Shown piece after piece: positions 24,201-45,369 of a stretch of DNA of 64,000 nucleotides. Source of the stretch: Spartobacteria bacterium LR76. Lineage in GTDB: Bacteria > Verrucomicrobiota > Verrucomicrobiia > Chthoniobacterales > Terrimicrobiaceae. Position 1 is the first letter of the stretch, and every line of letters starts with the position of its first letter. The stretch is taken from positions 1,364,001 to 1,428,000 of the forward strand of contig QAYZ01000016.1 of assembly GCA_003054655.1 (NCBI GenBank), in the 5' to 3' direction. The position numbers and the translations under genes were made by a program. The notes below the pieces were generated by a model. It searched no databases, was not told where the DNA came from, and worked only from the letters and a program-made list of their open reading frames with translations.

Positions 24201-24231
24201 AGAAAGTTTAAGGGTTGGATTTCTGTAAGGT

Positions 24232-24687
24232 TCAGGCGGTGGGTTTGTCGGTGCACTGCGGCCATGCGCCCTCGGGAAGCGGCGGAGCCTCCACGCCCGC
24301 CTTGGGAAGGGTGCCGTCGAGTTCCTGACGCCAGTGAGCCACGTCTCCGGCGGGGCCGTAGCAGTAGATCATGCGCAGCGGGGTGTCGCCAATGTTGGTG
24401 AGCTGGTGAAACACGCCGGACGGGATGTAAACCATCTGGCCGGTCGTCACGACCTGGCGCTCCGTGCCGAGGCAGAACTCGCCGGTGCCCTCGACGATGA
24501 AGTAGGTTTCTTCCTGTTCCTGGTTGTGCCACGGCACCTGACCGCCCTTGGGGTCGAGGGTGACGTTGCCCATGCTGAAGTTCGTCGCCTTGATCGGGGC
24601 CACGCCATTCACGAGATTCTGCGTGCGGCGGCGGGCCGGGAAGCGGCGACCTTCGATCTGTGCGAGATCCGATACAATGATGCTCAT
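24232..24687 (-). CDS. Cupin domain protein, possible KdgF-like role
   Basis: A 151-residue single cupin. Cupin motif 1 is in [20 protein letters not shown] (histidine, glutamates) and motif 2 in [19 protein letters not shown] metal site of His/Glu residues is therefore plausible. It overlaps the start of the GH88 gene stop by four bases. KdgF, a cupin, converts unsaturated uronates to linear keto sugars right after GH88/GH105 release. Its place here suggests such a function, but the protein is longer than KdgF and the similarity is only general. Confidence 0.78.
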
Positions 24688-26060
24688 AGGGAGAAGAAGG
24701 TGTAGTAGGGTTTGTTTTCGATGATGCGCTGGAGATAGATCGCGAGCTCGCGGGCGTGGTAGTCACCCCACATGGAGGACTCGCCGAGCGGGATCTTGCT
24801 GCCTTCCGGAATGTAATCCCAACCGTTCGGGCGGTGGTAGATCGAGTGCAGGATGAGGCCCTGATGTTCCGCGTCGGTGGAAAGGTACGGCTCAGCCAAT
24901 ACCGTATCGGCCACCGTAAGGCCCGCCTGCCAGTAGCGATCGCCACGGGCGTCGCCCTTCTGCTGGAGATAGCGGCCAAGACGGAGTAGGCCCTGCGCAG
25001 CGATGGCGGCGGCGGAACTGTCGACCGGCTCCCAGTCATTGTGAATCTGAGCCGGCTGGTTCATGTAGTCGCCGAGCTTGTGCAGGAACGGCGCGCCGGT
25101 ATCCCAGTACGGAATGCCGTCGGTCGGCGTGTTCTCGATGTAGTGGTCGCAGCTCGCGAGCGCGGTCTTGAGGAAAAGCTCCTCCACCGCGGAGCGACCG
25201 CCGAAGGCCTCAAACTCCGCATCCGGACGGGTGGCGAGCCACTCAAGCTGCTCGGGATACCCGGCGATGATCCAGGCCTGACCGCGAGTCCAGGTGGTGA
25301 AGGGCGAGAAGCCCTGTTGGGAGTTCGGGCAGCGGTAGTTGCCGTCGTTCAGGTTGAACACGCTCTCGTGGGCCACGCGTCCGCGCTCGTCGTAGTAGTC
25401 GCGGCCTTCGCCGAAGAACACGGCAAACTGCGAGGTGGTGCGGGCGTGCTGAATGAGACGCTCGAGAAGCGAAATGCGGGCATCGCGCTCACCCATGAGG
25501 ACATGGCCGAGCTGGTGGGAAACGGCCAGGGCGCGCAGCGAACGGATCGTGTCGGCAAAGAGCGAGTGCGGGCCATTGAACGAATAGATGTAACCCTCGC
25601 CATTGGAGATGCGGCTCCAGCGGGCGGCCTGCACAGCGCCGGTGCACTTGAGCGCCAACTCATAGAAATCCTTCTCCTGCTGGTTAAAGGCAATACGGCC
25701 CTCCACCATGAGTCGAAGCAGGTTGCCGTAGGTCGACACGTTGTTAAACCCATGGTCATGCACGCCGATGTGCGTGATGTGATGGGCCATGCGCTCGCGA
25801 GTGCGGTCGCGGCCCAGGGTCAGAAACGACTCATCGCCTGTGGCGTCGTACTGGAGAATGGCGGAGCCGTAGACAAAGCCCTGCGTCCACTCGGTCCAGC
25901 CGCGGGCGGTGTACTTGCCCTGGACGGTGAACACGGGAGTCGCGGCGCCGGGTTTCTCCGCGGCGTCGATTGAGAGGATCTTGGGAGCGGAGGCGTCCCA
26001 GAGTTTCTTGATCTTCGGCGCCAGCGAGGCGGTCGTGAGGTCTTGGCGAATGGTAATCAT
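24684..26060 (-). CDS. Glycoside hydrolase family 88 (unsaturated glucuronyl hydrolase)
   Basis: A 458-residue (alpha/alpha)6-barrel protein. GH88-type features are TARGWTEWTQGFVYGSAILQYDATGDESFL, HDHGFNNVSTYGNLLRL, and the aspartates in NLNDGNYRCPNSQQGFSPFTTWTRGQAW and DWEPVDSSAAAIAAQGLL. These enzymes cleave 4,5-unsaturated uronic acid from the non-reducing end of oligosaccharides made by polysaccharide lyases. No signal peptide is seen, so it acts in the cytoplasm. It overlaps the cupin gene by four bases and starts 6 bases after the SDR stop. Confidence 0.88.
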   Translation of the reverse strand: MITIRQDLTTASLAPKIKKLWDASAPKILSIDAAEKPGAATPVFTVQGKYTARGWTEWTQGFVYGSAILQYDATGDESFLTLGRDRTRERMAHHITHIGVHDHGFNNVSTYGNLLRLMVEGRIAFNQQEKDFYELALKCTGAVQAARWSRISNGEGYIYSFNGPHSLFADTIRSLRALAVSHQLGHVLMGERDARISLLERLIQHARTTSQFAVFFGEGRDYYDERGRVAHESVFNLNDGNYRCPNSQQGFSPFTTWTRGQAWIIAGYPEQLEWLATRPDAEFEAFGGRSAVEELFLKTALASCDHYIENTPTDGIPYWDTGAPFLHKLGDYMNQPAQIHNDWEPVDSSAAAIAAQGLLRLGRYLQQKGDARGDRYWQAGLTVADTVLAEPYLSTDAEHQGLILHSIYHRPNGWDYIPEGSKIPLGESSMWGDYHARELAIYLQRIIENKPYYTFFSL

Positions 26061-26066
26061 GCGAGA

Positions 26067-26858
26067 TTAAAGTCTGCGAAGGTGGAAGCCTCCATCGATG
26101 TTGATGACATCCCCGCAGGAGAACGGGAAATGCCCGCCCAGGATCGACTCAACCGCGCGGCCGACGTCATCCGGGTTACCCCAGCGCATTTGCGGCACGA
26201 GGCCGTCGGCGAGGAGCTTGTCATACTTTTCCTTCACGCCGGAGGTCATGTCCGTGGCCATGATGCCCGGGCGAAGCTCCAGCACCTGGATGCCCTCGGC
26301 GGCAAGACGCACGGCCCAAAGCTGCGAGGCCATCGAGAGGCCGGCCTTGGAGATGCAGTATTCGCCGCGATTGACCGAGGCGGTATTGGCGGAAAGCGAG
26401 CTGACGAAGACGAGCTTGTAGCCGGTCGAGAGGCGGGATTTGCCCGGGTTCTTCAGCCAATACTGGACGGCGAGCTGGGAGAGGAAATACGGCCCCTTGA
26501 GGTTGACCGCGATGACCTCGTCAAAAATCTCCTCCGTCGCCTCGACAATGTCGGCGCGAACGCGCGGGGCGATCCCGGCGTTGTTGATGAGCGCGTCGAG
26601 ATGGCCAAAGGCGGCAAGCGTTTCATCAAGAATTCGCTGGCGATCTGCCGCCACGCCGACGTTGCCGCCGACGATGGCAAACTGCTGCTCGGGATTCGGC
26701 GCAAGCTTGCGGCAGGCCTCCGCGGTTTCCTCCGCGGCCTGCTTGTTATTGGCGTAATGGATCGCCACGCTGTAGCCGGAGGCGGCGAGCTTTTCCGCCA
26801 CTCCACGGCCCAGTCCACGGCTGGAACCTGTAACGAGGACAACTGCGGGGGTTGACAT
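26067..26858 (-). CDS. Short-chain dehydrogenase/reductase (FabG-like), probable sugar dehydrogenase
   Basis: A 263-residue classical SDR from the ATG at 26858. It has the cofactor motif TGSSRGLGRG, NNAG (INNAGIAP), the catalytic serine in VFVSSLS and YxxxK in YCISKAG, and the C-terminal GDVINIDGGFHL. Placement as first gene of a GH88 operon suggests it reduces or oxidises a product of unsaturated uronate breakdown (a role like KduD or DhuD), which is inference. An AraC regulator is divergent. Confidence 0.88.
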   Translation of the reverse strand: MSTPAVVLVTGSSRGLGRGVAEKLAASGYSVAIHYANNKQAAEETAEACRKLAPNPEQQFAIVGGNVGVAADRQRILDETLAAFGHLDALINNAGIAPRVRADIVEATEEIFDEVIAVNLKGPYFLSQLAVQYWLKNPGKSRLSTGYKLVFVSSLSANTASVNRGEYCISKAGLSMASQLWAVRLAAEGIQVLELRPGIMATDMTSGVKEKYDKLLADGLVPQMRWGNPDDVGRAVESILGGHFPFSCGDVINIDGGFHLRRL

Positions 26859-26917
26859 GCTGGCGACCTTACACGCGCTTCTGATCCTGCGCCATGGCCC
26901 CAGCCGCGCCATTTAGC

Positions 26918-26939
26918 ACAAAAACGACTTTCTTTTTGT
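26918..26939. promoter_or_regulatory. Inverted repeat between the SDR operon and the AraC gene
   Basis: ACAAAAA (26918-26924) and TTTTTGT (26933-26939) form perfect 7-base arms around an 8-base centre. They lie in the only intergenic space between the divergent SDR operon and the AraC regulator. It is a candidate binding site for that regulator. Confidence 0.4.
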
Positions 26940-26945
26940 CTCCTT

Positions 26946-27785
26946 TTGAATTTCTTCTGGTTGCCGGTGAAAACGTACCGTCCCCTCCTCTTCCAGGAAC
27001 TCGACGTTCGCCTGCCGGGCGCACGTATTCGCCGCCTGCGGCTGAACCGCCACCTGCCCGAGGTGGACCAGCTCGCCCGGCACTCGCATTCCTTCTCGCA
27101 GGTGCTCTGCTACCTGAGCGGACGCGGCGTCATGACGGCCGACGGGGCCAATCTGGAAATCGGTCCCGCCAGCGTGATTTTCCTCCCGGCACGTAGCGAG
27201 CACTCGTTCCGCGAATCCACAGGGCGGCGGCCTCTCTGTCTCGTTCTCGACGTGGATTGGCGGGGATCGGTCAAACACGGCGTCTCTCTCGCGAGGCTGA
27301 CGCAATCCGAGGCAGGCGCGGTGCGGCGCGAGCTTTCTGAACTCACCCGTTTGAGCGATCCGCACGCGCCCGCTCATCGGCTGATCGTGGCCGCCTCGGT
27401 GCTGCGCATCCTCGATACGCTGTTTCGCTGCGTGGGAATCCTGCCGGTGCGTACAGGAGAATTTCCGGGATACGTCAGGCGCTTTGACAAACTCCTGCGC
27501 GGCGCGGACAAGCCGTTACCCGAGGTCGCGGCGTTGGCTGGAACCATGGGCTACCAGCCGGACCACCTGAACCGCCTCTTCAAAGCGGCCACGGGCCGTA
27601 CCCTGCGTGAGTACCGCGACGCCGTGGCCATGGAGCGCGCCCAGCGTGCGCTGCAAGCCCATCCCAAAATCAAACAAGCTTGCGACGCGCTCGGATTCAC
27701 CGACCAGAACTACTTTGCCCGCTGGTTCCGCAAGCAGGCGGGAATGAGTCCCCGCGCCTACCAGCGTGCGGCGCTGCCGCGTTAA
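26946..27785 (+). CDS. AraC-family transcriptional regulator
   Basis: A protein of 279 residues from TTG 26946, or 272 from GTG 26967; neither start has a convincing ribosome site. The N-terminal cupin-like sensor domain contains LARHSHSFSQVLCYLSGRGVM and IGPASVIFLPARSEHSF. The C-terminal pair of helix-turn-helix motifs (about residues 175-275) includes LAGTMGYQPDHLNRLFKAATGRTLREY and ACDALGFTDQNYFARWFRKQAGMSP. Transcribed away from the SDR-GH88-cupin-Gfo operon, it probably activates that operon in response to a sugar. Confidence 0.9.
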   Translation: MNFFWLPVKTYRPLLFQELDVRLPGARIRRLRLNRHLPEVDQLARHSHSFSQVLCYLSGRGVMTADGANLEIGPASVIFLPARSEHSFRESTGRRPLCLVLDVDWRGSVKHGVSLARLTQSEAGAVRRELSELTRLSDPHAPAHRLIVAASVLRILDTLFRCVGILPVRTGEFPGYVRRFDKLLRGADKPLPEVAALAGTMGYQPDHLNRLFKAATGRTLREYRDAVAMERAQRALQAHPKIKQACDALGFTDQNYFARWFRKQAGMSPRAYQRAALPR

Positions 27786-27791
27786 GCTTAT

Positions 27792-28796
27792 TTAGCGAAT
27801 CGTGACCGGCACGTTCTTCTGCACGAGCGTGTAGAAGGTCGCCGCGTCCCAGTTCGACAGGCGGATACAGCCATGGCTGCCAGCGCGGCCAATCGTATCC
27901 GGCGAAGTCGTGCCATGGATTCCGATGCCGGGACGGTTCAGACCCGTCCAAAGAATGCCGACCGGGCTGTTGGGGCCCGGAGGCAGCATGTAGTAAACCT
28001 TGGTGCGCTCGCCGCGCTCCAGCACGCCCTCGTCATAGCGATACCAGGGCCACGGCACGGCCTTGACGACCTTCCACTCGCCCAAGGGAGCCGGGTGCTC
28101 CTCGGAGCCGGGGGTGATCGGGAAAGCCGCGATTAGCTTGCCGCCGTCACGCACCTCCAGCATCCGTGTCTTCGTATCTACGTAAACGTGCCGGGTCAAA
28201 GCGATCGACTTCGGCGGTGCCGGGTACGCTGACGGGTAATCCCCCACCCGGAACGGACGATGCACGTTCGTCACCTTGACGACCGAACCGACCGGCAGGG
28301 CCTCGATGTTGACGCCAGGATTCAGCTCGGCCAGGAAGCCCGGCGTGGTGTGAAAGCGCTCTCCGAGAAGCTCGGCCATGGAGACGTACGGGAGGCGCTT
28401 CTGCTTGGCGAGTTCCTCGGGTTTCTCGGCCATGGTGCCGATCATGGCCTTATCCTCCGCCGTGATCGCGTAGGTCGTGTAGGGTTGGATGTTCGATGTG
28501 TCGGGCAGGTAGCCCTTTGGCAGGCCCTTGGCCTCGCGGTAGAACTCCAGGGCCTTGTCCGTAAACTCGCCACGATGGCCGTCCACCACGCCCGGGCCGA
28601 ATTTCCACGCATCGAGCACGATCTGGAGCTTCACCGTTTCGTCCCGCGCTGTCTTCCCATCGCCCGGACGATCGGATACCGTGGCGCAGCCGCCGAGCCA
28701 GACCATGGCAGCCAGTCCGCTCAGGATCGCACCGGAAACCCGGATTCGCCGAAAACCGGCCTCAGGGGCCGAAAACACACGCGTGGAGAAAAGCAT
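27792..28796 (-). CDS. L,D-transpeptidase (YkuD/ErfK family) lipoprotein
   Basis: A 334-residue protein. An N-terminal hydrophobic stretch ends in the lipobox VWLGGC (cysteine 37), so it is probably a lipoprotein. A linker with a LysM-like region (MAELLGERFHTTPGFLAELNPGVN) follows. The YkuD domain carries GIGIHGTTSPDTIGRAGSHG and CIRLSN with the catalytic cysteine near residue 310. It makes 3-3 crosslinks in peptidoglycan or anchors proteins to it. The stop is only 6 bases from the convergent AraC stop. Confidence 0.93.
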   Translation of the reverse strand: MLFSTRVFSAPEAGFRRIRVSGAILSGLAAMVWLGGCATVSDRPGDGKTARDETVKLQIVLDAWKFGPGVVDGHRGEFTDKALEFYREAKGLPKGYLPDTSNIQPYTTYAITAEDKAMIGTMAEKPEELAKQKRLPYVSMAELLGERFHTTPGFLAELNPGVNIEALPVGSVVKVTNVHRPFRVGDYPSAYPAPPKSIALTRHVYVDTKTRMLEVRDGGKLIAAFPITPGSEEHPAPLGEWKVVKAVPWPWYRYDEGVLERGERTKVYYMLPPGPNSPVGILWTGLNRPGIGIHGTTSPDTIGRAGSHGCIRLSNWDAATFYTLVQKNVPVTIR

Positions 28797-28873
28797 CGCG
28801 GTAATGCAGCACAGCCGGAGACGGTCGGCAAATACCCAGAGAGGAAATTTTCACCCCTGCCGGAAACGCGAAA

Positions 28874-28892
28874 GGCGGGCAAACCGCCCGCC
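28874..28892 (-). terminator. Rho-independent terminator after galE
   Basis: GGCGGGC AAACC GCCCGCC forms a 7-base-pair stem, followed on the minus strand by TTTCGCGTTT. It lies 32 bases beyond the galE stop. Confidence 0.6.
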
Positions 28893-28924
28893 TTCCGATG
28901 AGATAAGTGACCGATCAGGCGATT

Positions 28925-29899
28925 TTAGTCGCCGTAGCCGCCGGGGTTCTTGACGTGCCAGGCCCAGGCGTCTTTGACGATCTGGCGGATGTCCTGGTAC
29001 TTCGGAGCCCAGCCAAGCTCGGTGCGGATCTTGTCCGAGGCAGCCACGAGTCGCGGCGGGTCGCCTGCACGGCGGGGCTTTTCGATGGCCGTGATCTTCT
29101 TGCCCGAGATCTCACTACAGGCGTCGATGACCTCGCGTACGGAAGTTCCTCCACCAGTGCCGAGGTTGTAGAAGTCGGACTTCTCGGACTTCAGCGCGAG
29201 GATGTGCGCCTGGGCGAGGTCGAGGATATGGATGTAATCACGGATGCAGGTGCCGTCCGGCGTCGGGTAGTCCGTGCCGAAGATGTCGACGGATTCCTTC
29301 TGGCCGAGGGCGACCTTGAGCACGTTGGGGATCAGGTGCGTCTCGATGCGATGATCTTCACCGAATTTCTCCGTCGCGCCCGCGGCATTGAAGTAACGCA
29401 GGGCGGTGAAGTTCAGGTTATGAATCTGCCCGTACCAGCGGAGGATCTTTTCGAAAAGGAGCTTCGATTCTCCATAAGGGTTGATCGGCTGCTGCGGGAG
29501 CGTCTCGTCGAGCGGCACGCGCTCTGGGATGCCGAAGGTCGCGCAGGTGGAGGAGAAGACGAACTTCTTCACCCCGGCCTCTACAGCGACATCGAGGAGA
29601 TTGATGCCGTTGGCGACATTGTTGCGGAAGTACTTCGACGGATTCGACATCGACTCGCCCACCAGCGCGCTGGCGGCGAAGTGCATCACGGCATCCGGCT
29701 TCGCCTCGTCAAAGGCATGACGGAGGACCGTGCGGTCGGAGAGGTCTCCCTGGAAGAAATCCGCCCGGGTGTCGACGGCTTTGCGATGGCCTTCGGTGAG
29801 GTTGTCGAAGACGGCCACGCGATAGCCTTCGTTGAGCAACTGCTCGACGCAGATGCTGCCGATGTAACCGGCACCGCCGGTGACGAAAATGGTACTCAT
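28925..29899 (-). CDS. galE: UDP-glucose 4-epimerase
   Basis: A 324-residue extended SDR that interconverts UDP-glucose and UDP-galactose. It has GGAGYIGS (residues 8-15) for NAD, the catalytic serine in FVFSSTCATFG and YxxxK in NPYGESK. The GalE-specific LRYFNAAGA and IPNVLKVA motifs are also present. Length is normal. It sits 52 bases downstream of dnaE on the same strand, has its own terminator, and could supply UDP-galactose for surface glycans. Confidence 0.95.
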   Translation of the reverse strand: MSTIFVTGGAGYIGSICVEQLLNEGYRVAVFDNLTEGHRKAVDTRADFFQGDLSDRTVLRHAFDEAKPDAVMHFAASALVGESMSNPSKYFRNNVANGINLLDVAVEAGVKKFVFSSTCATFGIPERVPLDETLPQQPINPYGESKLLFEKILRWYGQIHNLNFTALRYFNAAGATEKFGEDHRIETHLIPNVLKVALGQKESVDIFGTDYPTPDGTCIRDYIHILDLAQAHILALKSEKSDFYNLGTGGGTSVREVIDACSEISGKKITAIEKPRRAGDPPRLVAASDKIRTELGWAPKYQDIRQIVKDAWAWHVKNPGGYGD

Positions 29900-29951
29900 G
29901 CGCTGAAAAACCTAGCTGGTCCGGCGGGCGCGAGGCAATTCCGAACTCCCC

Positions 29952-32900
29952 TCAGGCCGCAAAGATCGCCAGTTCCCGCTGCAGAGCGCCCTCGTCACCC
30001 ACGGAAAAATCCTCATCGGCCTCGATCACCACCGGCGGACCGTCCTTGCGAACGAACTCCAGGAGCAGCGGACGCTTGCCGGGATGCCGCTTCACGGCAT
30101 CCAGAACGGAGGCCAGACTCGACTCGCTCAGTTTTTCATGGGCCAGGCGCAGACAGACCGGGCGTGCAGAGGCCTTGGGCTTGAGCGGTTTGAAGGAATT
30201 TGCCGTGGCCCGGATGGCTTCATCCCGGCGCGTCAGCCGGGCCGACACCGCCACCACCGTACCCGCGACGAGCAGTTCCGCATTCTCGGAATACGCTTCA
30301 TCCCAGGCTGTAAGCTCGATCTGGCCGGTAAAATCCTCCAGTGCGATGATGGCGAAGGGGCGTCCGTCCTTTTTTGTGAACTTGCGCTCCACCGAGGAGA
30401 TGAGTCCGGCCAGCTTGAAAGTCGTGGGTTCCTCGACCTGCATGGCATCAGCGATCTTGCTCACCTTCCCGCTGTCAAAATGCCCCGCGTAGGCCTCGAG
30501 AGGATGCCCGGTAATATAGTACCCGAGCAGCTCCTTCTCGTGAGCCAGGATTTCATTCTGTGGCCACGGCTCCACCTTCCGGGCCGCACCCTTGGATTTT
30601 TGCGGCGCGGTGTCCATCGCATCGAAAAGCGAAACCTGCCCAGACGCCCGATCACGCTGCACGGCGGCAGCGGCAGCCATCGCCTGCTCGATATCCTCGA
30701 AGAGCTCGGCGCGATGCTTCTTGAAGCCGTCGAAGGCTCCGCACTTCACGAGGCTTTCCAAAATCTTGCGATTCACCGTACGGGAATCGAGTCGCGAGCA
30801 AAAATCCTCCAGCGAGGTGAATGGCCCGTTCTTCTCCCGATCCTCCAGCACCGCCTGCATCGCGCCCGCGCCGACGTTCTTGATGGAGGCGAGACCGAAT
30901 CGAATGGCGCGCTGGTCGCCAAACAGCTCAGGCGTGAAAAACAGGAAGCTGCTGTTCACATCGGGCGGCAGCACCTTGATGCCCATGCGGGTGCATTCCG
31001 CGATGACAACGGCGAGTCGATCCGTGGTCGAGGCATCATGCGTGAGCAAGGCTGCCATGAACTCCACCGGGTAGTGCGCCTTGACGTAGGCCGTCTGGTA
31101 GGAGACCCAGCCGTAAGCGGCACTATGACTTTTGTTGAAGCCGTATTCCGCGAACTTCGCGATAAAGTCGAAGATCGCGTCTGCCGTTCCGGGCGGGATG
31201 TTATTGACCTTTCCGCAGCCCTCGACGAAGCGCACGCGCTCCTTGGCCATCTTCTCCTTGTCCTTCTTACCCATCGCCCGGCGGAGCAGGTCAGCGTCGC
31301 CGAGGGAGTAGCCGGCCAGGATGTTGGCCGCCTTCTGCACCTGTTCCTGATAAACGATGATGCCGTAGGTATCGGCGCAGACCTGGGCCAGAAGCGGGTG
31401 CGCGTACTCGATCTTGTTGAGGCCTTTTTTGCGCGCGATGTAGTCGTCGATGAACTGCATCGGACCCGGACGATAGAGCGCGCCGATGGCGATGATGTCG
31501 TCGATCTTGTCGACGTCAAAGCGTTTGCAGCAGTTGGTGATGCCGCCGCTTTCCATCTGGAACACGCCGAGAGTTTCGCCCCGGTTATAAATGTCGAAGG
31601 TCTCCTTGTCCTCGGTCGGGATCGCCGCGAGGTCGAAGGTCGGGTTCTTCTCGTGAATCAGCCGTACGGCATGCTGGAGGATGGTCAGCGTCTTCAGGCC
31701 GAGAAAGTCCATCTTCAGCATGCCCAGCTCGGTCAGGGCGTTCATCTCATACTGCGAGATGACTTCATTGTCCTTGCCCCGGCAGAGGGGGATGTACTCG
31801 TCCAAAGGACGGTCGCCGATCACGACGCCTGCCGCGTGGATGCCGGTATTGCGGCAAAGACCCTCCAGCACGGACGCGTGGTCCCAGAGCTGGCGCGTGG
31901 CGGGTTCGGTTTCGAGCGCAGCCTTCAGCTCCGGACTCTTTTCCGCCGCGCTGGACAAGGTAATATTCAGCTCGTTCGGGATCATCTTGGCGAGCCGGTC
32001 GGCGTCGCCATAGCTCCAGCCCAGCACGCGGCCCACGTCGCGCACCACGCTCTTCGCCCCGAGCGTACCGAAGGTCACGATCTGCGAGACGCAACGCTCG
32101 CCGTACTTGCGGCGTACGTAGTCGATGACCTCGCCACGGCGTTCCATGCAGAAGTCCACGTCGATATCCGGCGGGCTGATACGTTCCGGGTTGAGGAATC
32201 GTTCGAAGATCAGTCCATACCGCAGCGGATCGATATCCGTGATGCGCAGCACATAGGCGATGAGCGAACCTGCCGCCGAGCCACGGCCAGGACCGACCGG
32301 AATGTCGTTCTCCTTGCCGTAGTTGATGAAGTCCCAGACGATGAGGAAGTAGCTGACGAAGCCCGTCTTCTCGATGACGCCGAGTTCGTACTCCAGGCGC
32401 TTGCGCAGCTCCTCATCTTTCTCGGCCCGTTCATTGCCGTAACGCTCGCGCAATCCCTGCCAGCAGAGATCACGCAGATACTGCTCGCGGGTGATCCCAG
32501 CGGGCGGCTCAAAGGCGGGATACTTCGGCTTGCCGAACTCCATCTGGAAGTCGCATAACTCCGCCACCTTCAGCGTGTTGTCGAGGGCCTCGGGAATGTC
32601 GCCGAAAAGCTGCTCCATTTCCTCGCGGCTCTTGAAATACAACTCCGTCGCATAGCGCATGCGCTTCTCATCGAGCACCATCGAACCCGTGCCGATGCAA
32701 AGCATCACGTCGTGCGACTCGTGGTGGGCGCGATCCAGGAAGTGCACGTCATTGGCCGCCACGAGATCGAGGTTCATTTCCCGGGCGATCTTGATCAGTT
32801 CCGGATTACAGCGGCGCTGGGCGTCGATGCCGTGGTCGTGGAGTTCGATGAAATAGCGCTCCGGTCCGAAGATATCGCGGTATAGCCCGGCGATCTCACG

Positions 32901-37220: not shown

Positions 37221-39266
37221 CTAGGCCGGAGCCGGGGCCGGGAATCCGCCCGGAGGCAGGTCTTCCTGAGTCGGCTCGGCAGTGCCGCCCGGGGTATCGG
37301 TCGGCTCGGGCGGGAGCGGCGGCGGAGCCTTGTACTTCCGCGGCGGATTGCGCAGTTCTCCAAACTCCATGATTTCCTTGATGTGGATGCCGTCGAGGGT
37401 CTCGTACTCGAGCAGCGCCTTTGCGATGGCTTCAAGGCGGTCGCGATGCTTGATCAGCAGTTCCTTGGCGCGAGCGTAGGCGTCGTCGCAAAGCTTGCGC
37501 ACCTCGCGGTCGATCTCCTGGGCGGTGGCTTCACTGTAGCCACGGGAGCGGCCCAGGTCGCGACCGAGGAACACGTAGTCATCGTGCTCGCCATACTCGA
37601 CCATGCCCATCTTCTCACTCATGCCCCATTCGCAAACCATCTTGCGGGCAATCGCCGTAGCCTGACCGATGTCGCCGCGAGCGCCGCTGGTCACGTCGCC
37701 AAAGACGATCTCCTCGGCCACGCGTCCGCCCATCGTCACCACGAGTTGATCGAGCAGTTCGTTTTTGCGGGTCGTATACTTGTCCTCCTCGGGCAGCCAC
37801 ATGGTGGAACCAAGCGACGGGCCTCGAGGAATAATGGTCACCTTGTGGAGAGGCTCGGTGTGCTCCAGAAGCTCCAGCAGGATCGCGTGGCCGGCTTCGT
37901 GGTAGGCGGTGTTTTCCTTCTCCTTTTCGGAGAGAGCGAGACTGCGGCGTTCCTTGCCCCAGCGCACCTTGTCCCGAGCTTCTTCCATCTCGATCATGGT
38001 GATGGCTTTGAGTCCCTTGCGGGCGGCAAGGAGAGCCGCTTCGTTGATCACGTTGGCGAGTTCCGCACCGGAGTACCCGGGCGTACCGCGAGCCACGACG
38101 GAGAGATCGACATCGGCCGAGATCTTCACGCGGCGGGCGTGGACCTTGAGAATTTCCTCGCGACCCTTCACATCCGGCAGGCTTACCGTCACCTGACGAT
38201 CGAAGCGACCGGGACGCAGGAGCGCCGGGTCGAGCACGTCGGGGCGGTTCGTGGCGGCGATGATGATCACGCCGTCCTGGGTGTCAAAGCCATCCATCTC
38301 CACGAGGAGTTGGTTGAGCGTCTGCTCGCGCTCGTCGTGTCCGCCGCCGAGGCCATGGCCGCGGTGACGACCGACGGCGTCGATTTCGTCGATGAAAATC
38401 AGGCACGGGGCGCTCTTCTTGCCCTGCTCAAACATGTCGCGAACACGCGAAGCGCCCACGCCAACGAACATCTCCACGAAGTCCGAACCGCTGATCGAGA
38501 AGAACGGCACGTCTGCCTCACCCGCAATGGCACGAGCGAGCATCGTCTTGCCGGTGCCCGGAGGGCCAACCATCAGCACGCCCTTCGGGATGCGACCGCC
38601 GAGGCGCTGAAATTTCTTCGGGTCCTTGAGGAAGTCGACGAGCTCGGAAACCTCTTCCTTCGCCTCCTCGACACCGGCGACGTCCTTGAACGTCACGCGG
38701 TTCTTTTCCTTGGAAAGCATACGCGCCTTGCTCTTGCCAAAGTTCATCGCGCTGCGGCCCGCCATCTTGATCTGCGAGCGGAAGAAGAAATACAGGATCA
38801 CGAGGAAGAGCGCGATCGGCAGAAAGCTCAGGATCGCGGAGGCGAGGAGGTTCGACTCCGGCTTCACATTGTAAGTAAGGCCCGCGGTGTTGAGCGCATC
38901 ACGAATCTCAGCGCCATTCATCGGCGCAAACATCGGCGTGCGGAACGGCACCTCGACTTCTTCGCCATTCGTCGCAGACTTCTGCTTGAAAAATCCGGTG
39001 ATCGTCTCGGTCTTGCGGCCTTCCTCCACCACGATCTCGATCGGCTTCTGGTCCGTCGAGACGACCTGCCCATCTTTGATGAGCTGGAGAAATTTGCTCG
39101 TCGTGATGACCTCGGTTTGATTGAAATTGCCGTTCCGGAAAAGGAACGCGCCACCGATCAAAGCCAGCGCGATAGCGAAGAGGACGAGGCCTCTCCAGTT
39201 CAGTTGCGGGTCATTCCCGCCGGGCGGACGCTGCTCTCGTTGTGGATTTTTGTTGTCTTCGGCCAT
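37221..39266 (-). CDS. ftsH: ATP-dependent zinc metalloprotease FtsH
   Basis: A 681-residue membrane AAA+ protease. Two N-terminal helices (about 24-44 and 141-162) flank the periplasmic domain. The AAA module has Walker A GPPGTGKT (234-241), Walker B IFIDEIDA (about 289-296) and the second region of homology. The zinc site is HEAGH (456-460). A proline-rich tail ends the protein. It degrades membrane proteins and some cytosolic regulators. It stands alone on the minus strand, with a good terminator behind it. Confidence 0.97.
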
Positions 39267-39302: not shown

Positions 39303-40052
39303 ATGCAAACGCCGCGCCAGAGTCTTGTCGTTTCAATTCACGATGTGAGTCCGCTCACGCAGACCGTCGTGCACACCATGCTGGCCGATCTCGCCGATGC
39401 GGGAGTATCCCGGACGTCTCTCCTGGTGGTGCCCGATCATCATAAAAAAGCACCCATCGCAAAGGATACGTCTTTTTGCCGGGAAATGCGCAATCTCGTT
39501 TCCTGCGGCCACGAGGTCGTCCTTCACGGCTACTACCATCTGCGTCCGCCAAAGCAGACAACGTTGCTCAAATCCCTCATCACCGAGCACTACACGGCAG
39601 GAGAGGGAGAGTTTTTTGACCTTTCGCGGGAGGAAGCTACGGAGCGCCTGGCCGCGGCGAAGAAGGAATTCGCCGAACATGGCCTTCATCCGGTCGGATT
39701 CATCGCTCCCGCGTGGCTGCTGGGCGCTGAAGCAGAGAGCGCAGTCAAAAACGCGGGATTTCAATACACCACCCGTCTCCAAACCTTCAAAGATCTCGCG
39801 AACGGGAGGGAGGACGCCAGCCAGAGCCTCGTCTGGAGCGTACGGGCCGCCTGGCGACGCGTGATCAGCCTCGGCTGGAACGCCTATCTTTTGAAGCGTC
39901 TGGGCGAAAACCCGCTCGTTCGCATCGGCCTGCATCCGCCGGACTGGTCGCATCCCGCGATTCGCCATCAGGTGCTCAGGATTGTGCGAGCAACGCTTGC
40001 CGCACGCGAGCCGATCACCTATGAGGGTTGGCTCCACCGGGCGCGCGTATGA
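39303..40052 (+). CDS. DUF2334/polysaccharide deacetylase-like protein
   Basis: The 249-residue protein has the NodB-like deacetylase fold pattern of DUF2334: SLVVSIHDVSPLT (motif 1 with HD), GHEVVLHGYYHL (metal histidines), and GFIAPAWLLG and LHPPDW later on. Such enzymes remove acetyl groups from sugar polymers; substrates of the DUF2334 branch are mostly unknown. No signal peptide is seen. Its stop overlaps the start of the PHP-glycosyltransferase gene (ATGA at 40049), so the two proteins probably act together on a glycan or glycolipid. Confidence 0.84.
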   Translation: MQTPRQSLVVSIHDVSPLTQTVVHTMLADLADAGVSRTSLLVVPDHHKKAPIAKDTSFCREMRNLVSCGHEVVLHGYYHLRPPKQTTLLKSLITEHYTAGEGEFFDLSREEATERLAAAKKEFAEHGLHPVGFIAPAWLLGAEAESAVKNAGFQYTTRLQTFKDLANGREDASQSLVWSVRAAWRRVISLGWNAYLLKRLGENPLVRIGLHPPDWSHPAIRHQVLRIVRATLAAREPITYEGWLHRARV

Positions 40053-42460
40053 ACCAACCGATTTCCAAGGCCGACCTCCACATCCACTCCCGGTTCAGCA
40101 CCCGGGCCGCAGACTGGGTGCTCCGCAGGTTTGACTTTCCGGCCAGCTACTCCGACCCCCTCCAAAACTACCAACGGCTGCGAGATGCCGGGATGCAGTA
40201 CGTAACGCTCACGGATCACAACACGATCGCGGGCTGCCTGGAGATCGCCCACCTGCCCGGAGTCATCTTCGGCGAGGAGGTGACCGTGCATTTCCCGGAT
40301 GAAGAGTGTCGCGTCCACATCCTCGTCTGGGGCCTCACCGAGACCCAGCATCGGGAGATGCAGGTGCTGCGGGAAAATATCTTCGAGTTTCAGAAGTATC
40401 TCGCCGCCGCCAATCTCGCCCACGCCGTCGCCCACCCGTTTCAGAGTCCCAACGACAAGCTCACCCCCCTCCACTTCCAGAAGCTCATCCTGCTTTTCCG
40501 CCACTTCGAGGGCATCAATGGGCGCTATCTTGCGCGCTGGAGCGAGGCCACCCAGTTCAGCCTCAACGCGCTCACCCCGCGCACGATCGAAACCTTCGTC
40601 GCCCGCACCGGAATCGAGCCGACGCATGCGGAGCCTTGGAAAAAAGTTTTTGTCGGAGGTTCCGATGATCACGGCGGGGTCTATCCTGCCCGGGCCTGGA
40701 CGGAAACGCCGTATTGCGACACGGCTGTGGATTTCCTCAAAAACATTCGCGACGGCCAGTGTACGCCGTCCGGCGAAGGCGGCACCCCCCTCGCCCTCGC
40801 GCACGGCACGTACAATACCGCCTTCCAGTTCCTGAAAGCCAAGTTTGCCCTCAAGCCCGGCGACCCTGCGGCAGGGTTGATCGAAAAGGGCTTCTCCCGA
40901 TTCATGGAGGGCAAGGACCCGACGGAATTCACCCTCGCGGAAAAGCTCGGCTTCCTCGCCCAGGGTATCGCCTCGGGCAAGGTTTTCGAGCTCGCGATGG
41001 CAGGCAATACCTCGCTCTGGAAGGAGCTTTCCAGCTACTTTTCCAAGCCCGAGGTGAAAGCTGCCATGGCCCGCGAGACGGCGGGCGTGGTCGAGCCGGA
41101 GCGTCGCGCATTTCTCATGGCCAACCTCGTGGCCAATCAGCTCGGCTACCGCTTCTTCACCCAGTTCATCGCGCAGATCTCGGGCGGAAAATTCATCGAG
41201 AGCATCCAGACGATCAGCCCGCTCGTGCCGATCGCCGGGCTGCTCAGCCCGTATCTGCATGCCCTGCGCCAGCCTCGTCGTGAGACCGTCCGCGAGCTCA
41301 CCCGTACGGCGGCGGGCACGATCCCTCCCTTCCTGCAAAATCGCAAACGAGCCTGGTTCACCGATACGCTGGAAGACGTCAACGGCGTCGCCACGACCAT
41401 CCGCAAAATGATCGCTGCGGGCGTGGCCTCCGGCTACGATGTCAAGGTGATGACCTGCCGCTCGGAGGTGGGCGACCACGGCATCCCGCTCAAGAACTTC
41501 ACCCCGGTGGGCGAGTTTGAGCTGCCCGAGTATGAGCTCCAGCGCCTCAGTTTTCCTCCGGTCCTGGCGGTTCTTGAGCACCTGATCCGCGAGAACTACT
41601 CGGAGCTGATCATCAGCACGCCCGGTCCGCTCGGCCTGGCCGCACTGCTCGCGGCCAAGACCCTCGGCATTCGCGCCGTCGGCATTTATCACACGGATTT
41701 TCCGCAATACGTCCGCATCCTCACCGACGACTCCTTCATGGAGACGCTCACGTGGGATTTCATGCACTGGTTCTACAGCCAGCTCGACATCGTCTACGTC
41801 AACTCGGAGGACTACCGCAAATGCTGGGTCGACCGCGGTATTCCTGCCGAGAAACTCAAGATCCTTCCCCGCGGACTCGATACGAAGCTCTTCAGCCGCT
41901 CGCGACGTGAGGCAGACTTCTGGCGGTCGCGCGGACTGCGTGATGGAGAGGTCGCAATGCTCTTTGTCGGCCGCATCTCCAAAGAAAAGAACCTCGACAC
42001 ATTGGTGGCGGCGACTCGCCGCCTCGCCGAATGGCAGATCCCGGTACGGCCTGTTTTCGTCGGCGACGGCCCGTATCTCGCCGAGATGAAGAAACTGCTG
42101 CCCGATGCGATATTCACCGGGTATCTGAAGGGTGAAGATCTCGCCAAAGCCTACGCCTCCGCCGATTTCTTCGTATTTCCGAGCACGACCGATACCTTCG
42201 GCAACGTGGTGATCGAGGCGCAGGCCTGCGGGCTACCCGTGATCGTCTCCGATGTCGGCGGTCCCCGCGACCTCGTGAGCCACGGCAAGGATGGCTTCGT
42301 CACCAAGGCGCTCGACTCGGTCGAACTCTCCGAGGCGATCCGCCGCCTGAGCGAAGACCCGGGCTTGCGGGAGCGGCTCGGCGCAGCGGCTCGGGCCAAG
42401 GTCGAGAACCGCGACTGGACGGAAGCTTTTCAGAAGTTCTGGACGAACTCCCCGGAATAA
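40049..42460 (+). CDS. PHP-domain/GT4 glycosyltransferase fusion protein
   Basis: An 803-residue protein with two clear modules. Residues 1 to about 250 are a PHP phosphoesterase domain (ADLHIHSRFS, TLTDHNTIAG, HAVAHPFQ and GGSDDHGG carry metal-ligand residues). A helical link (about 270-430) follows. Residues about 435-803 form a GT-B, family 4 glycosyltransferase (VGRISKEKNLDTLVAA, FPSTTDTFGNVVIEAQACGLPV, SDVGGPRDLV). In the GT4 N-terminal half the phosphate-site GVATTIRKMI is visible. Nothing like a signal peptide is present. It is translationally coupled to the DUF2334 deacetylase. One guess is that the PHP part removes a phosphate from the lipid or sugar on which the GT acts. Confidence 0.87.
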   Translation: MNQPISKADLHIHSRFSTRAADWVLRRFDFPASYSDPLQNYQRLRDAGMQYVTLTDHNTIAGCLEIAHLPGVIFGEEVTVHFPDEECRVHILVWGLTETQHREMQVLRENIFEFQKYLAAANLAHAVAHPFQSPNDKLTPLHFQKLILLFRHFEGINGRYLARWSEATQFSLNALTPRTIETFVARTGIEPTHAEPWKKVFVGGSDDHGGVYPARAWTETPYCDTAVDFLKNIRDGQCTPSGEGGTPLALAHGTYNTAFQFLKAKFALKPGDPAAGLIEKGFSRFMEGKDPTEFTLAEKLGFLAQGIASGKVFELAMAGNTSLWKELSSYFSKPEVKAAMARETAGVVEPERRAFLMANLVANQLGYRFFTQFIAQISGGKFIESIQTISPLVPIAGLLSPYLHALRQPRRETVRELTRTAAGTIPPFLQNRKRAWFTDTLEDVNGVATTIRKMIAAGVASGYDVKVMTCRSEVGDHGIPLKNFTPVGEFELPEYELQRLSFPPVLAVLEHLIRENYSELIISTPGPLGLAALLAAKTLGIRAVGIYHTDFPQYVRILTDDSFMETLTWDFMHWFYSQLDIVYVNSEDYRKCWVDRGIPAEKLKILPRGLDTKLFSRSRREADFWRSRGLRDGEVAMLFVGRISKEKNLDTLVAATRRLAEWQIPVRPVFVGDGPYLAEMKKLLPDAIFTGYLKGEDLAKAYASADFFVFPSTTDTFGNVVIEAQACGLPVIVSDVGGPRDLVSHGKDGFVTKALDSVELSEAIRRLSEDPGLRERLGAAARAKVENRDWTEAFQKFWTNSPE

Positions 42461-42523: not shown

Positions 42524-43369
42524 ATGTCCGCAGCAGATCCCGGAATGGCGGCCTCCTCCTTTCCGGCCTTCTTCCGTAAAATCCACGGCCCGGTGGTACA
42601 GCGCTGGCTCTTCGGAGCCTGGACGATTGGCGTTTTCGCGTTCCTGTACATTCCGATCCTGCTGCTGATCATCTACTCTTTCAACGATTCCAAGCTGAAC
42701 ATCCGCTGGGAGGGCTTCACCTGGAAGTGGTACGGCGAGCTCTTTACCAACGCCCCCATCCTCCATGCCTTCCAGAACAGCCTCATCGTGGCCACATCGA
42801 CCATGGTGATCTCGACGGCGCTGGGAACGATCGGAGCCTGGATGCTCTACCGCTACCGCTTCCCGTTCCAACGCGCCATCGGCCTGCTCATTTTTATCCC
42901 GATGGTGATCCCGGAGGTGCTCATGGGCGTGAGCATGCGGGCGGAATTTGTCCACCTGCTCAAATTGCCGCTGGGCCATGTCGCGATGATCATCGCTCAT
43001 ACGACGTTCTGCTTCCCATTCGTGCTCGTGGGAGTGCAGGCGCGGCTTCAAGGACTCGACCCCTTCCTGGAGGAAGCCGCCCAGGATCTCGGCGCCACTC
43101 CGGGGCAGGCCTTTTGGAAAGTCATTGTCCCCTACCTTTTCCCCGCCATCGTTTCCGGTGCGCTGATGTCGTTCACTCTGTCGCTCGACGAGTACATCGT
43201 CTCGATCTTCACCACCAACGCGCAGTCCCAGACGCTGCCCCTCAAGGTCTACGGCATGGCCAAGGTGGGGCTGAATCCGCAGCTCAACGCGCTCAGCACT
43301 CTTTTTGTCATCGGCACGGTCGTGCTGGTGATCGCCAGCGAACTACTAACCCGTAGAAAAAGCACATGA
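42524..43369 (+). CDS. potC: Spermidine/putrescine ABC transporter permease PotC
   Basis: A 281-residue permease with six membrane segments and the EAA loop (LEEAAQDLGATPGQAFWKVIVP) that contacts the ATPase. SLDEYIVSIFTT is the PotC signature. It begins a potC-potD-potB operon: its stop overlaps potD by four bases. The usual ATPase PotA is not in this cluster or window. Confidence 0.92.
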   Translation: MSAADPGMAASSFPAFFRKIHGPVVQRWLFGAWTIGVFAFLYIPILLLIIYSFNDSKLNIRWEGFTWKWYGELFTNAPILHAFQNSLIVATSTMVISTALGTIGAWMLYRYRFPFQRAIGLLIFIPMVIPEVLMGVSMRAEFVHLLKLPLGHVAMIIAHTTFCFPFVLVGVQARLQGLDPFLEEAAQDLGATPGQAFWKVIVPYLFPAIVSGALMSFTLSLDEYIVSIFTTNAQSQTLPLKVYGMAKVGLNPQLNALSTLFVIGTVVLVIASELLTRRKST

Positions 43370-44481
43370 AAAACAACGCACGCCACCTGATGCTGTCCGC
43401 ATTGGCAATGCTCTCGCTTGCCGGATGTGGAAAACCGCCGGAGCCCAGCGCCTCAACGCCCACACCCGCCTCCTCTCCAGGTTCGTCGCCAGCGGCGGCC
43501 GCCGCCGCGCCCGCGGAGGAGAAGAAGCTCAATATCTTCTGCTGGTCCGAGTATATCCCGCAGGATGTCATCGATGCCTTCACCAAGGAGACCGGCATCC
43601 AGGTCTCGGTGGAAAACTACGCATCCAATGAGGAGATGCTGGCCAAGCTCCTCGCCGGAGGCGGCAGCTATGACCTGATCCAGCCGAGCGAATACGCCAT
43701 CGAGGGCCTGATCGCAGAGAATCTCCTGATCCCGATCGACCACGCGCTCATCCCCAACATCAAGAACATCGCTCCCGAGTTCCTCAACATGTCGTTTGAC
43801 CCGGGCAACAAGTACACCGTCCCGTATATGGCGGGCACGGTCGGCATCGTCGTCAATACCGACCTCGTGAAAGACGAGATCACGAGCTTCAATGATGTCT
43901 TCCAGGACAAGTACAAGAAGAACATCGTGGTCCTCGATGACGCTCGCGAGATCGTCACCTGGGCGATGCTGAGCCAGGGCATCCCGGTCAATGAGGTGAG
44001 CGACGCCAATCTCGAAAAGGTCAAGCCGACCGTGGCCAAGTGGGTGCAGCTCGTGAAGGTCTACGACTCCGACAGCCCAAAGACCGCGCTGCTCAACGGC
44101 GATGTCGCCCTCGGCGTCGTATGGGGCGGCGAAGGCGCTCTCCTGCTGAATGCCGACAAGAAGTTCAAGTGGGTCATGCCCAAGGAAGGCACGCATCTCT
44201 TTATCGACAGCCTCGCGATTCCCAAAATCGCCAAGCACCCGACGAATGCGCAGCAGTTCATGAATTTCATCCTGCGCCCGGACATCAGCGTGAAAATGTC
44301 GGATGCATTTCCGTATCTGAACCCGAACGCCGCCGCCCGTCCGCTGCTCACCAAGGAACAGCAGGAGAACCCCGCCAGCTTCCCGAGCGCCGAGGAAATC
44401 GCGAAGATGCAAACCTTCAAGGATATCGGTGGGCAGGCCACCAAGGTGGACGAACTCGTTACCTCGCTGAAAGCCCAGTAA
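43366..44481 (+). CDS. potD: Spermidine/putrescine-binding lipoprotein PotD
   Basis: A 371-residue substrate-binding protein. The signal peptide ends in the lipobox SLAGC (cysteine 21), then a Ser/Pro/Ala linker. LNIFCWSEYIPQDVIDAF and GSYDLIQPSEYAIEGLI are family typical, as are VPYMAGTVGIVVNT and WGGEGALLLNADK. It delivers polyamines (or a related amine) to PotB/PotC. Gene order C-D-B is not the common A-B-C-D. It starts with a four-base overlap with potC, and potB begins 3 bases after. Confidence 0.92.
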   Translation: MKNNARHLMLSALAMLSLAGCGKPPEPSASTPTPASSPGSSPAAAAAAPAEEKKLNIFCWSEYIPQDVIDAFTKETGIQVSVENYASNEEMLAKLLAGGGSYDLIQPSEYAIEGLIAENLLIPIDHALIPNIKNIAPEFLNMSFDPGNKYTVPYMAGTVGIVVNTDLVKDEITSFNDVFQDKYKKNIVVLDDAREIVTWAMLSQGIPVNEVSDANLEKVKPTVAKWVQLVKVYDSDSPKTALLNGDVALGVVWGGEGALLLNADKKFKWVMPKEGTHLFIDSLAIPKIAKHPTNAQQFMNFILRPDISVKMSDAFPYLNPNAAARPLLTKEQQENPASFPSAEEIAKMQTFKDIGGQATKVDELVTSLKAQ

Positions 44482-44484
44482 CCG

Positions 44485-45369
44485 ATGGCCGGAATCACCG
44501 CCGCCACTGCGGATAACCTCGGAGCATCCGCCTACAAACGGCGGCCCAGTTGGGTCGCTTGGCTGGTCTTTGCCCCGCTGGCGGCGTGGCTGATTCTGTT
44601 TGTCATCGTACCGACTCTGACCCTGGTCGCGCTGAGCTTCGGCGAACAGCGCGGCCTGGGCACGGTCGAGTTCACCTTCACGCTGGAGAACTACCAGCGC
44701 GCCTTTAACTGGACCTGGTTGAAGGTCTTCTGGACCTCGATCTGGTACGCCCTGCTCACGACCGGCATCTGCATGGTCATCGGCTATCCGGTCGCCTACT
44801 ACATCGGGCGCTCGCCAGAGAACATGAGGAACATGCTCCTCACCCTGGTGATGATCCCTTTCTGGACGAGCTTCCTCATCCGCACATACGCGTGGATCAC
44901 CATCCTGAGCAAGGAAGGCCTGATCAACAGCTTCCTCGTAGCCGCCAGGATCGTGCCTGAGCCGATCACTATCCTCTACACTCCTTTTGCCGCAGTGTTA
45001 GGACTCGTTTACAACTACCTGCCCTTTATGATCCTGCCGATCTATACGAGCGTGGAGCGGCTGGATAATGCCATGATCGAGGCCGCCTATGATCTCGGGG
45101 CGCGCCCGGTTCGTGCCTTTTCCCAAATCATCATTCCCCTTACCAGCCCCGGCATCGTCGCTGGAGCGCTGCTTGTCTTTGTTCCCTCCATAGCAATGTT
45201 TGCGATCACCAACCTCATGGGAGGCGGAGATCCGCCGACCATCGGCGAGGTGATTTACAAACAATTCACCTCCGGCCGTGCCCAACCCTTTGGCGCCGCC
45301 CTGGGAACGCTGCTGCTGCTGATCTTTATTATTACCCTATGGATCGGGCGGAGGCGGAGCGAGGAATAG
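44485..45369 (+). CDS. potB: Spermidine/putrescine ABC transporter permease PotB
   Basis: A 294-residue permease with six membrane segments. The EAA motif reads MIEAAYDLGARPVRAFSQIIIP. FWTSFLIRTYAWITILSKEGLIN is the PotB/PotH hallmark. It completes the membrane part of the transporter encoded with potC and potD. An ATPase must come from elsewhere. Pyruvate kinase follows after 77 bases. Confidence 0.92.
   Translation: MAGITAATADNLGASAYKRRPSWVAWLVFAPLAAWLILFVIVPTLTLVALSFGEQRGLGTVEFTFTLENYQRAFNWTWLKVFWTSIWYALLTTGICMVIGYPVAYYIGRSPENMRNMLLTLVMIPFWTSFLIRTYAWITILSKEGLINSFLVAARIVPEPITILYTPFAAVLGLVYNYLPFMILPIYTSVERLDNAMIEAAYDLGARPVRAFSQIIIPLTSPGIVAGALLVFVPSIAMFAITNLMGGGDPPTIGEVIYKQFTSGRAQPFGAALGTLLLLIFIITLWIGRRRSEE

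Follow-up and report, generated by a model that had tools for sequence, protein, structure and literature searches.

The window analyzed here is a stretch of 64,000 nucleotides of Spartobacteria bacterium LR76 (contig QAYZ01000016.1, positions 1,364,001 to 1,428,000), and our subject is a pair of genes between its positions 39,303 and 42,460. The first encodes a DUF2334 protein and the second a fusion (P0002) of a PHP phosphoesterase domain, a helical linker and a GT4 glycosyltransferase. The features are as follows.

39303-40052, + strand: gene of a DUF2334 protein of 249 aa, a putative N-acetylglucosaminyl-lipid deacetylase of the GpgD family (PF10096, NF053788; ATG at 39303, TGA at 40050-40052)
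40049-40052, + strand: ATGA, the overlap of the stop of the first gene with the start of the second, read from the sequence
40049-42460, + strand: gene of the PHP-linker-GT4 fusion, 803 aa (ATG at 40049, stop at 42458-42460)
40049-40783, + strand: predicted PHP phosphoesterase domain, residues 1-245 (superposition of predicted models; PF02811 in some homologues)
40784-41353, + strand: predicted all-helical linker, residues 246-435 (predicted models)
41354-42457, + strand: GT4 (GT-B) glycosyltransferase domain, residues 436-803 (Pfam, trees, residue conservation)

An earlier note on this DNA had described a deacetylase-like gene that overlaps the start of a PHP-GT4 gene, and the coordinates agree with this exactly. 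A divergent ftsH-like gene (37221-39266) lies on the upstream side, 36 nt from the start of the DUF2334 gene, and P0002 is the sole full-length copy of the fusion in the genome of the window (G000). A genome scan, which works by short exact patterns, finds close relatives and is the whole of our coverage beyond the phylum, returned 51 homologous loci (L006-L056), nearly all with verrucomicrobial names; a 57-residue match (L057) was left out. The neighborhood analysis that the earlier note proposed revealed a DUF2334 gene upstream of the fusion in 35 of these loci, and in one of the remaining 16 (L044) the contig starts inside the gene. The spacing was also kept, with the 4-nt overlap in 12 of the 35 pairs and a distance of at most 21 nt in 32 of them. 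Hence, an orphan pair or a chance overlap was ruled out.

The product of the upstream gene matched PF10096 (E = 3e-27) and, over its full length, NF053788, the model of the N-acetylglucosaminyl-phosphatidylglycerol (GlcNAc-PG) deacetylase (E = 8.6e-58). Its score of 195.6 bits lies under the 280-bit cut-off of this model, which was passed by none of the 288 sampled Verrucomicrobiota genomes. Residues D14, H75, H79 and H211 are among those conserved in at least 35 of 36 rows. By score the protein is a member of the GpgD family, and the corresponding deacetylase activity is predicted. The GpgSDF pathway is established in Pseudomonas aeruginosa, where the product of GpgD is glucosaminyl-phosphatidylglycerol (GlcN-PG), according to the accessible part of PMC12713373. 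A separate GpgS-like gene was detected on another contig of G000 (C12:19397-20551; NF053787, 288.5 bits, positions 1-360). When matches to NF053787 above 200 bits were counted as GpgS and matches to NF053788 above 150 bits as GpgD, GpgS was present in 16 of the 17 GpgD genomes of the phylum sample, in 8 of 12 genomes with homologues and in 21 of 24 further ones; among the 16 fusion genomes with no GpgD it was found in one, as a partial match. These counts indicate that GpgS tracks GpgD and not the fusion.

In some families the genes of this pathway lie beside the fusion. The six genomes of family f8, methanotrophs as judged by pmoA (6/6), each carry gpgS, a gene of ~240 aa, gpgD and the PHP-GT4 gene consecutively on one strand, and the gene between gpgS and gpgD belongs to an acetyltransferase-like family (compared directly in three of the six). 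In family f24, locus L106 carries gpgD, gpgS, a GpgF-like flippase gene that adjoins both, and the PHP-GT4 gene, all within 6 kb, and L108 carries a like set within 8 kb, with the flippase assigned from the look of its sequence alone. In addition, a GNAT-like family of ~230 aa adjoins gpgS or gpgD in several Verrucomicrobiota, the genome of the window included (L180:7276-7983, L100:7339-8061, L188, L184, L108, L107, L181, L099 and L210). The member from the window's genome scored 17.4 bits against the 20.7 of Pfam, and a nine-row profile of the family matched the solved acetyltransferase 4bmh (E = 7.6e-22). This family may be a component of the GlcN-PG pathway in Verrucomicrobiota that has so far gone unlisted.

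We then turn to the fusion, beginning with its C-terminal half. That a PHP domain is fused to a full GT4, as the earlier note had it, was confirmed for the GT4 by Pfam (PF13439 at residues 444-613 and PF00534 at 628-783). Six of the seven glycosyltransferase residues checked (H548, D550, R642, K647, D715 and E723) are invariant in all 62 rows of the alignment, and BshA, MshA and PimB' were among the best structure matches of the GT-B domain. The best NCBIfam model of the fused GT4 was NF053787, the GlcNAc-PG synthase, which matched locally (67-352 of 361; 128.7-130.9 bits). In a tree of 47 GT domains (tree 1, which contains the long-branch row L098), 19 PHP-GT4 rows and six 'long' GT4 rows with no PHP formed one group (support 100/99), nine GpgS rows were united separately (100/100), as GpgS was again in trees 2 and 3, and Agt1 and Agt2 of P. 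aeruginosa fell in a third group with other PHP-less GT4s (88/86). The PHP-GT4/'long' group persisted when an outgroup was added (tree 2, 97/96); L098 was dropped from trees 2 and 3, and all trees were built with the sucrose-phosphate synthases left out. Pairwise comparison of the window's GT domain placed the 'long' GT4s nearest (228-254 bits), followed by Agt2 (191 bits, 34.6% over 364 residues), Agt1 (114 bits) and the GpgS of its own genome (84.7 bits). By sequence, the fused GT4 is placed outside the GpgS clade, as sister to PHP-less GT4s. The possibility that it is itself GpgS was ruled out by its score (130.9 vs 288.5 bits), by the separate clade of the GpgS rows and by the separate GpgS gene.

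The N-terminal half was recognized mainly by its predicted structure. Pfam reported no PHP in P0002 at E<=0.1 (PF02811 appeared only at E = 0.14), and a PHP-linker profile matched nothing in the PDB by sequence at E<=0.1; among 40 rows searched at E<=1, PF02811 was found in 15 and PHP_C in 29. AlphaFold models were obtained for the whole protein (predicted local distance difference test score, pLDDT, 86; predicted template modelling score, pTM, 0.83) and for residues 1-437 (pLDDT 82). Residues 1-243 of the model superimposed on 3e38 with a VIA-align Z of 19.1 (2.9 A over 195 residues) and on both 2yb1 and RNase AM with Z 15.9, and in the models this region is a PHP fold, which upholds the other half of the claim for a fusion. 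Prediction of the linker structure, also proposed earlier, gave an all-helical region with helices between 247 and 422 in both models; the list of structure matches, filled by PHP matches, probed the linker barely and assigned it no fold. The linker is the least conserved third of the protein (mean modal identity 0.51 over the 62 rows).

The partners of the PHP-less relatives carry the interpretation. Fifteen PHP-less GT4 loci, hand-picked among the better-scoring matches, were inspected, and a calcineurin-like phosphoesterase of the PlcP family was found beside the GT in nine of them, including five of the six 'long' GT4s of the sister group, and fused to it in two. The other four (L161, L162, L165 and L172) have no adjoining PlcP-family gene, and one lies elsewhere in each genome. 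The four partner phosphoesterases compared with P. aeruginosa PlcP are 42-45% identical to it over ~250 residues, and the same phosphoesterase-GT4 pairing was seen in a Sphingomonas plasmid. A search of the flanks of PHP-GT4 loci found no PlcP homologue. Genome-wide, a PlcP-family gene was present in 16 of 16 genomes with a PHP-less GT4 vs 5 of 32 with the fusion; the survey of the two GT4 forms scored three candidates per genome, so that mutual exclusion is not proven by it. Those five genomes all belong to the window's order and include G000; their PlcP homologues are 47-51% identical to that of P. aeruginosa, and no relative of these GTs was present beside the PlcP gene in the stretch fetched. 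Accessible portions of PMC8528852 and PMC8231724 describe how PlcP and Agt convert phospholipid to glycolipid. The P. aeruginosa genes used for comparison were identified from their neighbors, in line with what is available of PMC8528852: we read the GT after plcR (L096) as Agt2/PA0842 and the phosphoesterase-GT pair of L202 as PlcP-Agt1/PA3219-PA3218. L202 is a stretch (23891-31580) of the P. aeruginosa plasmid pHPA0698-2, a 96-kb record, and was read as chromosomal plcP-agt1 with its neighbors; the phosphoesterase is also present on two further P. aeruginosa plasmid records.

Taken together, we propose that the fusion is a phospholipid-to-glycolipid unit of the PlcP-Agt type, with PHP in the place of PlcP, which is co-expressed with GpgD; we give this reading, whose activities are predicted ones, a probability of roughly 0.4. 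The PHP domain would release diacylglycerol by hydrolysis of a phospholipid, with phosphatidylglycerol or phosphatidate as the likeliest substrate, as the partner swap suggests, and the GT4 domain would glycosylate that diacylglycerol from a UDP-sugar, as its relatives and their partners suggest, so that PHP-GT4 would be the one-chain counterpart of the PlcP-Agt pair. The upstream GpgD-family protein would make GlcN-PG from GlcNAc-PG supplied by the GpgS encoded elsewhere. With translational coupling the cell might regulate these two routes, each of which uses phosphatidylglycerol, and this common use could be the reason for the coupling. The sugar, the phospholipid substrate and the activity of PHP in this species are likewise presumed.

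A different role for the two domains was suggested by the best PDB sequence match of the fusion protein, the sucrose-phosphate synthase 6kih. Phosphatase-GT4 pairs of the kind formed by sucrose-phosphate synthase and sucrose-phosphate phosphatase exist, and the GT4 could similarly glycosylate a phosphorylated acceptor (phosphatidylglycerophosphate, or a soluble sugar or glycerol phosphate) that PHP would dephosphorylate afterwards. We consider this very unlikely: the PHP-less relatives have a PlcP-family enzyme as their partner, and the match to 6kih may be generic, given that the PDB matches seen included no Agt.

We then asked how well the PHP domain is preserved. From the motif, we take its metal ligands to be H11, H13, D18, H57, E77, H90, H129, D206 (N allowed) and H208. 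On this map, which comes from the motif and not from a superposed structure, P0002 keeps eight of the nine positions, with T18 in place of D; the metal-ligand motifs that the earlier note had seen are thus present except at one position. Missing ligands, which that note took as a point on which its reading could fail, are a feature of most homologues: nine positions are kept in 13 of the 62 rows, eight in 11, seven in 24 and six or fewer in 14, so that 49 rows, P0002 included, lack at least one. Outside the order of the window, none of the 19 rows has fewer than eight (N206, present in three of them, was counted as kept), and these rows come from genomes with no PlcP. In addition, D9, D56, E154, K199, S205 and D207 are invariant in the 62 rows. 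A protein of 740 aa (L176:2071-4293, G086) begins with a PHP-like region that retains each of the nine ligands, and Pfam matched nothing in it at E<=0.01.

In a second set of genomes, a PlcP homologue was found in 30 of 41 homologue genomes, in G000 and three order-mates (4/4), and in none of 20 others, among them G280 from the window's order. Genomes with nine ligands numbered none with PlcP and 13 without it; with eight ligands, four and seven; with seven or fewer, 27 and nine. When the core eight positions were considered, they were intact in three genomes with PlcP and 19 without, and eroded in 28 and 10, respectively (Fisher p = 9e-6 over 60 genomes, kinship ignored). This trend has the expected direction but reflects few events. 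We therefore hold that the ancestral PHP did the work of PlcP and that, within the order of the window, the domain may have become redundant or a relic. The PHP of the window's own protein may still work. The more specific proposal that PHP is a phospholipase C-type enzyme feeding diacylglycerol to the fused GT, which replaced PlcP in the phylum, its methanotrophs included, and is decaying where a separate PlcP is present, we regard as possible but doubtful. Such an enzyme would, to our knowledge, be the first phospholipid-cleaving member of its superfamily.

The same data bear on the view that PHP is a scaffold or relic kept for folding or regulation, the protein being a plain lipid GT that receives diacylglycerol from a separate PlcP or from normal metabolism. 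The contrast between nine ligands kept in 13 of 62 rows and six of seven GT residues fixed in all of them speaks for it, as does the PlcP homologue in G000 and in most of the homologue genomes tested, whereas the eight ligands of P0002, the preservation in every row outside the order and the six invariant PHP residues speak against it. We judge this explanation somewhat unlikely.

Several observations weigh against a PlcP-Agt-type unit with a working PHP. A separate homologue of PlcP is encoded in the genome of the window, with 51% identity to the P. aeruginosa protein, and across much of the window's order the PHP ligands are eroded, down to two of nine, while the GT residues are fixed; therefore PHP catalysis appears dispensable there. 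The link between ligands and PlcP was lost on phylogenetic pairing (eight independent pairs, with a difference in PHP state in ~2; p = 0.5). The order of the PHP-GT4, Agt and GpgS groups is not settled, the root being weak (58/83, tree 2). The approximately unbiased (AU) test disfavored a union of PHP-GT4 with GpgS in tree 2 (p = 0.025), and in tree 3 it rejected PHP-GT4 with Agt (p = 0.022) just as it did PHP-GT4 with GpgS (p = 0.021). Both rejected topologies separate PHP-GT4 from the 'long' GT4s, and the support that the test gives is therefore confined to the grouping of these two. GpgD and GpgS are both absent from three genomes with the fusion (G297-G299). No Pho box was found near the genes: the 64-kb window has one site with three mismatches, at 8094, and chance expects 3.2; control by phosphate through a Pho box was accordingly rejected. 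Finally, we know of no PHP enzyme that cleaves phospholipids.

The close association with GpgD admits another explanation, which is the main rival for the link between GpgD and the fusion. The fused GT4 would add GlcNAc to diacylglycerol or phosphatidylglycerol and the adjoining DUF2334 protein would deacetylate the product directly, as in GpgSDF or in HexSDF of Clostridioides difficile, where, as cited in the accessible part of PMC12713373, the deacetylase works on the product of its own GT. The tight coupling in 35 of 51 loci agrees with such a two-step unit, and in the phylum sample a GpgD match was found in 17 of 288 genomes, 16 with the fusion and one without (G143). GpgD was also present in 29 of the 32 genomes that comprise the homologue genomes of the scan and G000. 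Furthermore, four genomes have GpgD and the fusion with no GpgS above 200 bits: G280, which is 97% complete, and G301, G306 and G316, which are of 1.4-1.8 Mb and perhaps incomplete; several of the genomes with no PlcP or GpgS are in general small (1.2-1.8 Mb) and perhaps incomplete. Against this, GpgS accompanies GpgD in all but one of the 17 genomes, the GpgS clade does not include the fused GT4, and 16 of the 32 fusion genomes have no strong GpgD match, which indicates that the activities are separable. On balance we think the two-step unit unlikely.

The fusion itself was present in those 32 of the 288 genomes, methanotrophs included; the number takes in a frameshifted copy, a copy truncated at the end of its contig and two copies whose linker is divergent. 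In one methanotroph (L105, G152:C1:336584-338967) PHP-GT4 is read in two frames with the break between PHP and linker, which is either real or a sequencing error. A plasmid search with residues 1-437 gave nothing at E<=0.01. An obligate three-activity unit was rejected, given the fusion without GpgD (16/32) and GpgD without the fusion (1/17). Of the glycolipid unit of deacetylation, dephosphorylation and glycosylation that the earlier note envisaged, the three domain types and the setting of lipid glycosylation thus stand, and the data do not establish a single pathway, GpgS being a separate gene. Its statement that the product is undescribed applies to the fusion, since no PHP-GT4 lipid enzyme was described among the best-ranked matches of a targeted literature search, and does not apply to GpgD, whose product is the GlcN-PG mentioned above. 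Downstream of the pair, and outside the unit, lie ABC-transporter genes (42524-45369) for a permease, a solute-binding protein and a second permease.

If the PlcP-Agt-type reading is correct, two phosphoesterases that are not related to each other have been recruited for converting membrane phospholipid to glycolipid, a domain architecture that occurs in many families of the phylum gains a testable function, and the newly described GlcN-PG pathway is tied to a second lipid pathway. It would also offer a candidate route for verrucomicrobial methanotrophs, in which PlcP is reported absent in the portion of PMC9239053 available. The phylum is already known to hold PlcP, because the accessible text of PMC4796936 reports a homologue in a marine verrucomicrobium. 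In addition, the analysis distinguishes GpgS from a similar GT4 for which the GlcNAc-PG synthase is the best NCBIfam model.

Three known arrangements may be compared with the fusion. With PlcP-Agt (PA3219/PA3218/PA0842 of P. aeruginosa and GTcp of SAR11) it shares a GT4 joined to a phosphoesterase, the catalytic His, PHP-less relatives with a PlcP-family partner, and an Asp at the first place of EX7E, as in GTcp (accessible part of PMC8231724) and in the Agt1 row. This place is Glu in the Agt2, solo GT4 and GT4-metallophosphoesterase rows, as in GpgS, and Asp is therefore not a universal mark of Agt. It differs in that its phosphoesterase is PHP and not calcineurin-like, with ligands often eroded and an activity that is presumed, in that it is a single polypeptide with a helical linker of 190 aa and is coupled to DUF2334, and in that no calcineurin-like PlcP lies beside the fused GT and no Pho box was found. 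With GpgSDF the locus shares a DUF2334 gene of the GpgD family, a GpgS-like gene in the same genome and, in L106, a GpgF-like flippase beside gpgD and gpgS; it differs in that the fused GT4 is not GpgS and the window's scores lie under the NCBIfam cut-offs, and PHP is not mentioned in the accessible portion of PMC12713373. The third arrangement, the verrucomicrobial GT4-metallophosphoesterase fusions L166:5254-7284 (676 aa) and L167:5673-7790 (705 aa), which come from another family of the class and are by domain content natural one-chain PlcP-Agt proteins, likewise joins GT4 and phosphoesterase in a single chain, but in the order GT4 then Metallophos and with no PHP. We read the fusion of the window as belonging to the phosphoesterase-glycosyltransferase kind of lipid remodeling, with PHP in the place of PlcP as its new element.

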